The position numbers and the translations under genes are program-made. A stretch of DNA of 64,000 nt from Chloroflexota bacterium (lineage in GTDB: Bacteria > Chloroflexota > Anaerolineae > Aggregatilineales > Phototrophicaceae): positions 1 through 64,000 of the forward strand of contig WTGF01000002.1 in assembly GCA_011525385.1 (NCBI GenBank), given 5' to 3'. How positions within the stretch are numbered: position 1 is the first letter of the stretch; each line of letters begins with the position of its first letter. Under the pieces are notes generated by a model. The model was not told where the DNA came from. It searched no databases and saw nothing but the letters and a program-made list of their open reading frames with translations. Of this stretch, positions 8,605-40,850 are shown piece after piece.

Positions 8605-8639
8605 CTGAAGACCCTGTCCGAATGGAGCATGTAAGGCAA

Positions 8640-9245
<606 letters not shown>

Positions 9246-9447: not shown

Positions 9448-10119
9448 ATGCTAGATCAAATGGACTGGGACATAAGGCTCTTTGTCTATCGCTTGTTCGC
9501 AAGTCGAGGCTTTCCTCCCAACGTCGAAGAAATCACCCGGCATTTCCACATGGCTGTCCCCGGTACAAAACGAGCTTTGCATCGACTGCATAAGTCTCAT
9601 GCGCTATTTCTGCGTCCCGGCTCGGATGACATCCTGATGGCGAATCCTTTGTCCGCGGTCGCTACCGACTATCAAGTCAGCATCGGCAAAAGACGCCTGT
9701 ATGCCAACTGCGCCTGGGACGCCCTCGGCATCCCGGCAATGCTGCATGCGGACGCGAGAATTGCAGCGCGCCATCCGCTCGACCGCGATCTGGTTCATTT
9801 CTCAATCGAGGACAGCAGGCTGAGTTCTGAGAGCGAAGGGATCGTACATTTCGCCAAACCCTTCCGGAATTGGTACGATAACCTCATTGATACTTGAGCG
9901 ACTATTCTGTTCTTCCGTGAGGAGAAAGAGGTTGACCAGTGGTGCCGCAAGGAAGGACGAATGAAAGGAGCGCTGCTGTCTTGGCAAAAGGTATGGACGC
10001 TTTCGCAGCGGTGGTATGGCGATCGCATGTCGCCGGCCTTCCGCGGCAGAACGCTGAATGACGCGCGCGCGATATTCGCCTCGCTTGATTTGACCGATGA
10101 TTTCTGGATGGGTGATTAG
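9448..10119 (+). CDS. MerB-family (organomercurial lyase-like) protein, probable selenoprotein with in-frame UGA
   Basis: The frame from 9448 to 10119 encodes 223 residues if the TGA at 9895-9897 is read through; MerB has about 212. The N-terminal 60 residues are a helix-turn-helix-like domain. YANCAWDALGIPAML carries the C-x-x-D motif (Cys88, Asp91), matching MerB Cys96 and Asp99. The TGA is codon 150, just after NWYDNLIDT and before ATILFFREEKEVDQWC. In MerB this position is catalytic Cys159, spaced 63 residues from Cys96 (here 62). After it, the family C-terminus is intact, including WYGDRMSPAFRGRT and LDLTDDFW, to a TAG at 10117. A SECIS-like hairpin follows the TGA. MerB cleaves C-Hg bonds by protonolysis; whether this protein acts on mercury is unknown, as no mer genes adjoin. 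A nonsense mutation is the alternative. The start may instead be ATG 9460 or TTG 9433; none has a good ribosome binding site. Confidence 0.8.
9905..9930 (+). promoter_or_regulatory. Candidate bacterial SECIS hairpin
   Basis: The arms TTCT-G-TTCT-T-CC (9905-9916) and GG-AGAA-AGAG (9921-9930) give ten base pairs (one T-G wobble), with a bulged G9909, a bulged U9914 and the tetraloop GUGA (9917-9920). The loop GU lies at nt 20-21 after the UGA. In E. coli fdhF, SelB recognises a bulged U and a loop GU at the same distance from the UGA. The hairpin lies inside the coding sequence, as is normal for bacterial SECIS elements. Confidence 0.65.
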
Positions 10120-10163: not shown

Positions 10164-10892
10164 ATGAGCAAGTCTGGCGAGCTACCCTATCAACGTATAT
10201 TGCTGAAACTGAGCGGAGAAGCCCTGGCGGGAAACAGTGGATTCGGAATTGATCCCGAAAAAGCGGCATACATTGCCCAGCGTGTGCGGGAAGTCTATGA
10301 ATTGGGTATGCAAGTAGCCATCGTCATCGGAGGCGGCAACCTGTGGCGCGGCGAGCCCGCGGCGAAACTCGGCATGGAGCGCAGCACGGCCGATCATATG
10401 GGAATGATCGCTACGGTGATGAATGGATTGGCTCTCCAGGACGCCATCGAGCGGCTAGGCATCATTACCCGCGTACAAACCGCGGTGCAAATGAATTCAA
10501 TTGCTGAACCTTATATCCGCCTGCGCGCGATTCGACACATGGAAAAAGATCGTGTCATCATCCTGACCGGCGGCATCGGCACACCCTATTTCACGACCGA
10601 TTCCGCAGCCGCCCTGCGCGCCAGCGAGATCGATGCTGATGTGATCGTCAAGGCCACCAAAGTGGATGGCGTGTATTCCGACGACCCTGTCCACAACCCA
10701 AATGCGACGCGATTTGGCAGATTGGCCTATCAAGATGTGCTCGAGCGCCATCTACGCGTGATGGATACCACAGCATTCACGCTTTGCCAGGAAAATGAGA
10801 TGCCGATCATTGTGCTGAACTTCTGGAATCCGGACGACTTGGTCAAGGCCTTGCGAGGAGATACATCTGTCGGCACTCTTATCTGCGACTAA
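10164..10892 (+). CDS. pyrH: UMP kinase
   Basis: PyrH phosphorylates UMP to UDP in pyrimidine nucleotide synthesis; it is a hexameric amino-acid-kinase-fold enzyme. Motifs visible are ILLKLSGEALAG at the N-terminus, the glycine loop VIGGGNLWRG, ADHMGMIATVMNGLAL, ILTGGIGTPYFTTDSAAALRA and VKATKVDGVYSDDP. Length 242 residues is typical. The ATG at 10164 has AAGGAG at 10153-10158. It lies 44 nt after the MerB-family gene. The usual downstream partner frr is absent, replaced by a glycosyltransferase gene. Confidence 0.97.
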   Translation: MSKSGELPYQRILLKLSGEALAGNSGFGIDPEKAAYIAQRVREVYELGMQVAIVIGGGNLWRGEPAAKLGMERSTADHMGMIATVMNGLALQDAIERLGIITRVQTAVQMNSIAEPYIRLRAIRHMEKDRVIILTGGIGTPYFTTDSAAALRASEIDADVIVKATKVDGVYSDDPVHNPNATRFGRLAYQDVLERHLRVMDTTAFTLCQENEMPIIVLNFWNPDDLVKALRGDTSVGTLICD

Positions 10893-28384: not shown

Positions 28385-28439
28385 CCATATCGCGTTTGAC
28401 AAGCCAAGCCGCCTGTGTTATGCTCGGCCCACGTACATA

Positions 28440-28572
28440 TTTCTAAGACTCGGGTGTGCCTGAACCCGGATGTTCGGCACAAATAGGGAAAGTCGGTGCG
28501 AGTCCGACACTGTCGCGCAGCGGTAACTGATCGTGTCATCAAACGTTCAGAAGTCCGAATTCCTGCCCCAGC
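28440..28572 (+). promoter_or_regulatory. Cobalamin riboswitch
   Basis: The conserved core AAATAGGGAAAGTCGGTGCG (28481-28500) is followed by AGTCCGACACTGTCGCGCAG and CGGTAACTG, the B12-box-type signature, and by CAGAAGTCCG and CCTGCC (28562-28567). The order matches the cobalamin riboswitch class. With the terminator at 28630-28656 it should shut down the downstream uptake operon when adenosylcobalamin or a related cobalamin is plentiful. Confidence 0.9.
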
Positions 28573-28629
28573 CTTAGCTCGTAAATCTTTCGCGTCAAAA
28601 GGGAGACGAGCGTGGTTAGTATCACTTAT

Positions 28630-28708: not shown

Positions 28709-29902
28709 ATGCGTTCCAAACTTTTTGTGTTCTTCAGTATTCTGATGTTCATGGTCCCGGCGACGGCGCAGGACCAAAACGTGACCGAGGGTTGTATCAC
28801 GAATTACAGCGCCGATGTCGACTATTTCCCCGAAAAAATCGAGATTCTGGACGCGGAAAGATTCGCTGTCCAATATCACAACCATTACAAAGTCCTGAGC
28901 GTCAGCGACGCCTACGACGGCGCGCCCGGCTTTGACTATGTACTGGTGCAATGCGGCGCGCCCGCGCCTCCGGCAGCCGATTTCGCTGATGGCGCGCAAT
29001 TCATCGAGGTGCCAACCGGCGACATCATCACCCTTTCCACGACGCAGTTGCCCGCTCTAGCGCAGCTTGACCTGCTCGAACATCTGGTGGGCGTCGACAG
29101 CGCCTTTTATATCAGCACGATTGAAGTGGTCGACGCAGTTGCCGACGGGCAAATCGCCGAGGTGGGATTCGGCGCGCAGATCAACATCGAGCTGGTGCTG
29201 AACCTGGAGCCGCAATTGGTCATGAGCTATGGCTACAATCCGGATACCGATGCCCATCCGGTCTTGCTGGATGCCGGCGTCTTCACGGCGCTGGACGCCA
29301 GTTGGCGCGAACTGTCGCCACTGGGGCGCGCCGAGTGGCTCAAATTCACCGCCCTCTTTTACAATCGCGAAGCGGCTGCGACGGAGATATACGACAGCCT
29401 CGCCTCCCAGTACGAGAACGCGCGACAACTCGCCGAGAGCGTACCGGAAGCGGACCGACCGAGTGTGCTGATCAACTCATTCCTGGGTTATGCCGACGCC
29501 TGGTTCATCCCGGGCCAAGAAACATACGTCGGCAGGCTTATCCGCGACGCCGGGGGGGAGCTGCTGCTGGCGGAAGAAGGTTCGACCTCGAGCCAGGGCT
29601 GGAGCTTTGAAGCTGTCTATGAGGCCGGACTTGCGGCAGATCTTTGGCTTGTCGAGACCTTTGGACTTTCCTCTCAAGCGGACTTGCTGGCGCTCGACAG
29701 TCGCTTCGGCGACTTTGCAGCCTTCCAGTCGGGCGATGTCTGGAACAACAATGCGGACGAAAACGTCAACGGCGGCAACAACTACTACGAATGGGGCGTG
29801 ACCAATCCGCACCTGGTATTGGGGGACCTGGTGGCGATACTCCACCCGGACCTGTTACCCGAGCGCGAATTCGTCTTTTATCAGAAACTTGCGAGCAAGT
29901 AG
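28709..29902 (+). CDS. btuF: Cobalamin-type ABC transporter substrate-binding protein
   Basis: A 397-residue secreted binding protein of the helical-backbone class III type (BtuF/FhuD/FepB). The signal peptide is MRSKLFVFFSILMFMVPATA, with likely cleavage after ATA. The binding domain includes QLDLLEHLVGVDSAFYIS, LNLEPQLVMSYGYN and WNNNADENVNGGNNYYEWGV. AAGGAGGGATAAA precedes the ATG. Its position under a cobalamin riboswitch and beside an adenosyltransferase gene supports corrinoid rather than iron-siderophore specificity. It heads a four-gene operon. Confidence 0.88.
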   Translation: MRSKLFVFFSILMFMVPATAQDQNVTEGCITNYSADVDYFPEKIEILDAERFAVQYHNHYKVLSVSDAYDGAPGFDYVLVQCGAPAPPAADFADGAQFIEVPTGDIITLSTTQLPALAQLDLLEHLVGVDSAFYISTIEVVDAVADGQIAEVGFGAQINIELVLNLEPQLVMSYGYNPDTDAHPVLLDAGVFTALDASWRELSPLGRAEWLKFTALFYNREAAATEIYDSLASQYENARQLAESVPEADRPSVLINSFLGYADAWFIPGQETYVGRLIRDAGGELLLAEEGSTSSQGWSFEAVYEAGLAADLWLVETFGLSSQADLLALDSRFGDFAAFQSGDVWNNNADENVNGGNNYYEWGVTNPHLVLGDLVAILHPDLLPEREFVFYQKLASK

Positions 29903-38333: not shown

Positions 38334-38406
38334 TGGGCTGTACAGGACTCGAACCTGTAACCTCCTCGACGTCAACGAGGCGCTCTGCCAGTTGAGCTAA
38401 CGGCCC
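38334..38406 (-). tRNA. tRNA-Val (anticodon GAC)
   Basis: The complementary strand folds as a cloverleaf. The acceptor stem pairs GGGCCGT with the ACAGCCC region, the D arm has TAGCTCAACTGGCAGAGC, the anticodon stem CCTCG/CGAGG encloses TTGACGT with anticodon GAC, and the T arm contains GGTTCGAGTCC. The discriminator is A; CCA is not encoded. Confidence 0.93.
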
Positions 38407-40556: not shown

Positions 40557-40629
<73 letters not shown>

Positions 40630-40687
40630 GGGTGAAGCACCATCATACGGAGTATGACCCACGAAGTCAATGCGGATACCAACTGAG

Positions 40688-40758
40688 AGCGGGTAACGGG
40701 ATTCGAACCCGTACTGACACCTTGGAAGGGTGGAGTGCTACCGTTACACCATACCCGC
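40688..40758 (-). tRNA. tRNA-Gly (anticodon TCC)
   Basis: A 71-nt cloverleaf on the minus strand: acceptor GCGGGTA with TACCCGC, D arm TGGTGTAACGGTAGCA, anticodon loop CTTCCAA with TCC, T arm GGGTTCGAATCCC, discriminator T. Confidence 0.93.
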
Positions 40759-40776
40759 GAGTTCTGTCTTCGGAAG

Positions 40777-40850
40777 TCGGGGCGCCCGGATTCGAACCGG
40801 GGACCTCACGGACCCAAACCGTGCGCGCTACCGGGCTGCGCCACGCCCCG
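40777..40850 (-). tRNA. tRNA-Pro (anticodon TGG)
   Basis: A 74-nt cloverleaf on the minus strand: acceptor CGGGGCG with CGCCCCG, D arm GGCGCAGCCCGGTAGCGC, anticodon stem CACGG/CCGTG with loop TTTGGGT (TGG), T arm CCGGTTCGAATCCGG, discriminator A. It is the promoter-proximal member of the Pro-Gly-Met cluster. Confidence 0.94.

Follow-up and report, generated by a model that had tools for sequence, protein, structure and literature searches.

A MerB-like gene of a Chloroflexota bacterium with a predicted selenocysteine in place of the catalytic Cys159

The first 64,000 nucleotides (nt) of contig WTGF01000002.1 from a Chloroflexota bacterium (assembly GCA_011525385.1), hereafter the window, carry a MerB-like gene whose reading frame is interrupted by a single UGA codon (Table 1). 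We propose that this UGA, at residue 150, is almost certainly decoded as selenocysteine (Sec), and that the product is very probably a MerB-like selenoprotein in which Sec150, together with Cys88 and Asp91, would cleave an organometal compound, probably an organomercurial. We infer both the decoding in vivo and the chemistry from the comparisons set out below.

The frame holds exactly one TGA, followed by 73 further residues, and Cys88 precedes it by 62 residues. Both the frame of 223 codons with one TGA and this spacing had been claimed in an earlier note on this DNA, and translation bears them out. The read-through frame is considered real because MerB homology spans the TGA: the PF03243 domain scores 97.9 bits over residues 68-191, well above the gathering cut-off of 27 bits, with the halves alone giving 55.9 and 26.6 bits. 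The length of the open frame was rejected as evidence, since it is not by itself beyond chance: across all six frames of the 64-kb window, 10 of 1,979 TGAs have flanks that are just as long. When residues 135-223 were used as a protein query against relatives sharing exact five-residue words, eight candidates were returned, none at E <= 0.01.

Alignment to MerB structures places residue 150 on Cys159 of MerB. The predicted structure of the window protein (predicted local distance difference test score 95.1) has the MerB fold, its residues 1-195 aligning with residues 17-209 of 5c17. The family shares with MerB (PF03243; PDB 3f0o, 5c17) a domain above the curated cut-off, the predicted fold, the Cys96 and Asp99 equivalents and the Cys159 position. 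It differs in having UGA (or UAG) in place of the Cys159 codon, and the window protein is about 16-20% identical to the solved MerB structures. The Phe-Phe pair that the earlier note expected after the Cys159 position is present in the window, but its first Phe is not conserved (15/46 aligned rows). PF12324 (HTH_15) gave no match in the genome, nor in the control genomes, so that nothing follows from its absence. It could be argued that Sec is inserted into a metal-binding sensor or scavenger, whose winged helix may bind DNA while Cys88 and Sec150 hold a soft metal. We regard this as unlikely: MerB2 and MerB structures align across both parts of the model, which makes the winged helix integral to the MerB fold and not an addition to it, and Asp91, the equivalent of MerB's proton shuttle, is invariant in all 46 rows.

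The in-frame codon of this MerB-like gene is widely conserved. Among 101 genomes, comprising the window's own and 100 relatives, the gene was matched in 35, with exactly one TGA in the full-length match in 32; one of the 35 (G066) has no TGA and carries TGT at this codon, and the other two (G014 and G020) hold decayed copies. A scan of species genomes added 64 loci, whose titles point to Chloroflexota, Gemmatimonadota, Marinimicrobia, Actinomycetota and Acidobacteriota, as well as four from archaea. Because several of these repeat genomes of the 101-genome set, distinct sites were counted (84 of 94 loci, compared over 66 nt, window included), and the codon is TGA in 75, TAG in five and TGC in four. 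Most loci come from metagenome bins. Named isolates account for the five TAG genomes and for Nocardioides sp. zg-1230. A sequencing error or a pseudogene has a vanishingly small probability when 32 of 101 genomes, each assembled independently, and 75 of 84 distinct sequences share the codon, Nocardioides sp. zg-1230 and other named isolates among them, even if decayed copies beside pyrH in two congeners (G014 and G020) point that way. Apart from these copies, close relatives show neither the frameshifts nor the further stops that the earlier note had considered fatal to its proposal, and one TGA is kept. The decayed copies are loci L175 and L176, with a pyrH-like reading frame next to the latter. 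Omega after the TGA is 0.20-0.67 within the window's clade (six members, 15 pairs) and 0.16-0.37 before it; the part past the TGA evolves under purifying selection in this clade. A search of 400 Chloroflexota genomes gave a match in 59, with a strong single-TGA copy in 16 (own genome counted) and a total of five Cys copies spread over four (G137, G156, G199 and G478); the weaker matches consist largely of other MerB-like genes. Database proteins matching the family number 629, and all 120 of those listed, NCBI entries included, stop at the Thr preceding the Sec codon. The family is therefore deposited in a form truncated by annotation.

The genome of the window encodes SelA, SelB, SelD and a tRNA-Sec with UCA anticodon, so that the set selA, selB, selC and selD, proposed in the earlier note as a check, is complete. 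The five TAG loci belong to Geodermatophilus, Blastococcus and Modestobacter (Geodermatophilaceae), where the gene ends in TGA, and the tRNA-Sec anticodon is CUA in all five of these genomes versus UCA in the others. UAG-encoded Sec has already been reported in Geodermatophilaceae (PMC5330540), with the same combination of TAG at the Sec site and CUA tRNA-Sec; the proteins named in the relevant part of that report are FDH, UGSC-motif proteins and AhpC, with no MerB-like protein among them. In the four archaeal genomes with TGC no tRNA-Sec scored above the cut-off, only tRNA-Ser being found, and no SelB did so in two such genomes tested. As tRNA-Ser also scores close to the cut-off, a clear tRNA-Sec was defined among the relatives by E below 1e-11. 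It is present in 28 of 32 TGA carriers, the remaining four having SelB, and TGT-bearing G066 has neither a clear tRNA-Sec nor SelB. For 15 further genomes, SelB is above cut-off in 10/11 UGA carriers and 0/4 Cys carriers, the eleventh UGA carrier (G361) giving a partial match of 183.3 bits. The machinery is necessary and not sufficient, because congeners without the MerB-like gene possess tRNA-Sec too. The codon comparison proposed earlier thus returned TGA, TAG only alongside a CUA tRNA-Sec, or TGC/TGT in genomes that do not use Sec, which indicates that the codon follows each host's predicted selenocysteine code.

These results bear on the reading of the UGA as an ordinary stop, with a functional product of 149 residues and a fortuitous remainder. 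The annotated end of all 120 listed database homologues at this point would favour it; it is nevertheless hardly credible in view of the purifying selection and the invariant residues past the UGA, the confinement of TAG to hosts with a UAG-reading tRNA-Sec, the Cys codons of genomes in which Sec machinery was not found, and the loss, in the truncated form, of the Cys159 position and its helix. The alignment, the Sec machinery, the homologous codons and the intact frames of relatives instead agree with the earlier note's central proposal of a selenocysteine at the Cys159 position. In a tree built by a quick method with no bootstrap, and containing one very long branch (L172), the TAG rows do not form a single clade (two changes), since the Nocardioides locus L070 is placed among them. 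Two side observations concern the machinery itself. The SelD of the window's own genome (L171, G000:C100:50859-51794) has a TGA in frame at the N-terminal position of its active site and is predicted to be a selenoprotein too, and Cys-bearing G066 contains three short adjacent SelB-like pieces (G066:C4:207021-207893), perhaps relics of a lost selB.

A candidate selenocysteine insertion sequence (SECIS) hairpin lies downstream of the UGA. Single-sequence folding proved weak as evidence for it and was replaced by conservation, measured over 80 distinct TGA/TAG sites with positions counted in nt after the codon. Positions 20-23 read GGUC at 72 of the 80 sites, GAUC at one and GUGA at seven, with UUCC and GGA on the flanks. 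The Ser codon of the hairpin is TCG in 73/73 cases, against 36% elsewhere in the same genes, and its Arg codon is CGG in 72/80, against 26% elsewhere; CGC, the commonest Arg codon, never occurs at that Arg site. The constraint on synonymous codons at the hairpin is strong. The outer pairs of the stem covary. By a shuffle test that ignores the relatedness of the sequences, the outer pair 15-28 (72/80 sites) was matched by 0 of 2,000 shuffles, pair 14-29 (64/80) by 3 and pair 13-30 (48/80) by 250; pair 16-27 was uninformative in the covariation test. The motif is not present in the archaeal Cys genes.

With regard to the activity of the proposed selenoenzyme, organomercury cleavage is our best guess. 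The scheme is modelled on the MerB mechanism, in which the Asp acts as proton shuttle. The UGA would be read as selenocysteine by the genome's SelA/SelB/SelD/tRNA-Sec system; the Sec150 selenolate, already ionised at neutral pH, would capture R-Hg+, with Cys88 supplying a second metal ligand; Asp91 would then shuttle a proton, breaking the carbon-mercury bond, and selenium and sulfur would together retain Hg(II) until thiols of the cell take it away. Several observations weigh against our interpretation, with respect to decoding and to activity. The window's own GUGA-loop hairpin is the weakest point of the selenocysteine case: the window and six other sequences (the seven being L018-L023 and L036) lack the GGUC loop, the window hairpin folds no better than its own shuffles (z -0.65, not significant), and single-sequence folds of other members are unremarkable (z 0.11, 0.00 and -1.82). 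As regards activity, the MerB signature of a published survey comprises Cys96, Asp99, Cys159 and Cys117 (PMC8261052), and only the Cys96 and Asp99 equivalents are kept here, position 159 being UGA and the Cys117 column His. The NCBIfam MerB equivalog and exception models give 45.2 bits (cut-off 193) and 35.3 bits (cut-off 200), well short in both cases. The mer operon setting of MerB genes was not found for the window gene, no mer neighbours being seen among the 12 window proteins scanned, and the best MerA match in the genome (333.3 bits) is under the cut-off of 454.45. MerA exceeds its cut-off in just 4 of the 17 genomes tested; about half of the merB genomes in the published survey are likewise without merA (PMC8261052). 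Owing to the lack of adjacent mer genes and of a MerA above cut-off, the sub-cut-off MerB scores and the His at 117, an organomercurial is named as no more than the probable substrate.

A MerB-like selenoprotein as a kind is already in print. Two reviews list one such protein, which the later of them equates with SaoL of the SAO operon, motif CU (PMC13188914). The main texts of PMC2398784 and PMC5029168, cited for it by a review, contain neither 'MerB' nor 'alkylmercury'. The window protein resembles SaoL in being MerB-like and a predicted selenoprotein, and has a weak match to its NCBIfam model (NF040728). Identity with SaoL is nonetheless very improbable: the match reaches 30.5 bits where the cut-off is 140, the motif is TU where the review gives CU, Thr preceding the codon in 46/46 rows, and the neighbours here are tsf and pyrH. 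SaoL is set apart here by model score, listed motif and neighbours, and the family itself may have an earlier mention in print.

In six distant Chloroflexota genes, from four genomes, TGA occupies the Cys96 column as well as the Cys159 column. They form two lineages, the Asp99 equivalent being kept in one (L226 and L228). PF03243 is above its cut-off in the two genes for which it was run. A single-Sec relative of the double form, L224 (G213), has TGC at the first site and TGA at the second; SelB is above cut-off in all five genomes with double genes or L224. The second TGA is followed by the same hairpin as in the single-UGA family, except that in L226 and L228 a U-A pair closes the unchanged GGUC loop in place of C-G. 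In L228 this hairpin is absent from the lowest-energy fold. The first TGA has a potential hairpin with GU in the loop, which is part of the lowest-energy fold in L212, L223, L226 and L228, and not in L221 and L222. At the first-site TGC of L224, the loop is GAUCA and lacks the GU seen in the relatives with UGA.

Table 1. Coordinates of the MerB-like gene, its catalytic positions, candidate hairpin and neighbours in the window, with the double-UGA genes of other genomes.
Feature	Position	Strand	Basis and remarks
MerB-like gene read through UGA	9448..10119	+	223 residues, TAG stop 10117-10119; translation, PF03243, relatives
N-terminal winged-helix-like domain, about residues 1-67	9448..9648	+	
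Cys88 codon TGC, MerB Cys96 column	9709..9711	+	alignment to MerB structures; invariant 46/46 rows
Asp91 codon GAC, MerB Asp99 column	9718..9720	+	alignment to MerB structures; invariant 46/46 rows
In-frame UGA, predicted selenocysteine 150	9895..9897	+	MerB Cys159 column; conservation, correlation with host code
Candidate bacterial SECIS hairpin	9910..9927	+	13-30 nt past UGA; GUGA loop at 9917-9920; family conservation, codon constraint
Elongation factor Ts (tsf), upstream neighbour	8622..9245	+	PF00889 139.6 bits
Amino-acid-kinase family, taken as UMP kinase (pyrH), downstream neighbour	10164..10892	+	PF00696 107.2 bits; name inferred from family and position
Double-UGA genes			L212, L221, L222 in G253; L223 in G471; L226 in G127; L228 in G512

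Clusters of flanking open reading frames covering the tsf and pyrH sides recur at 22 of 25 loci upstream and 24 of 25 downstream, these loci being from the genus and one relative. Conserved neighbours were rejected as a functional clue: beyond the window's genus, no such cluster extends to more than seven of the loci compared, and those are Gemmatimonadota. Elsewhere in the window, a cobalamin riboswitch (28435-28584, +) lies ahead of a periplasmic-binding-protein gene (28709-29902), with an ABC transporter ATPase farther on; this BtuF-like protein was considered as a second selenoprotein and dismissed, there being no in-frame UGA within it. Three tRNA genes are clustered at 40557-40850 (-), and a fourth lies at 38334-38406.

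At the level of the family, we give even chances to the broader proposition that this unannotated MerB branch, present in five or more bacterial phyla, consists of organometal-lyase selenoenzymes with Sec in place of Cys159, and of both Cys in the six Chloroflexota genes, encoded by UGA or UAG according to the host tRNA-Sec. The published merB survey covered 84,032 genomes and, as described, screened for Cys159 (PMC8261052); given that the records of the present family end at the UGA, such genes would therefore have gone uncounted. If the proposition holds, merB surveys that screen proteins for Cys159 would miss the family, and environmental demethylation capacity would be undercounted. The selenoproteome would gain a family whose mercury-cleaving fold has selenium where a catalytic thiol normally stands, a chemistry in which the affinity of selenium for mercury matters most, and the switching between UGA, UAG and Cys at one codon would provide a natural test of codon reassignment. 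In the double-UGA forms, two selenolates would grip the metal, and these genes offer a direct test of whether selenols can do the work of the thiols in a dithiol metal lyase.
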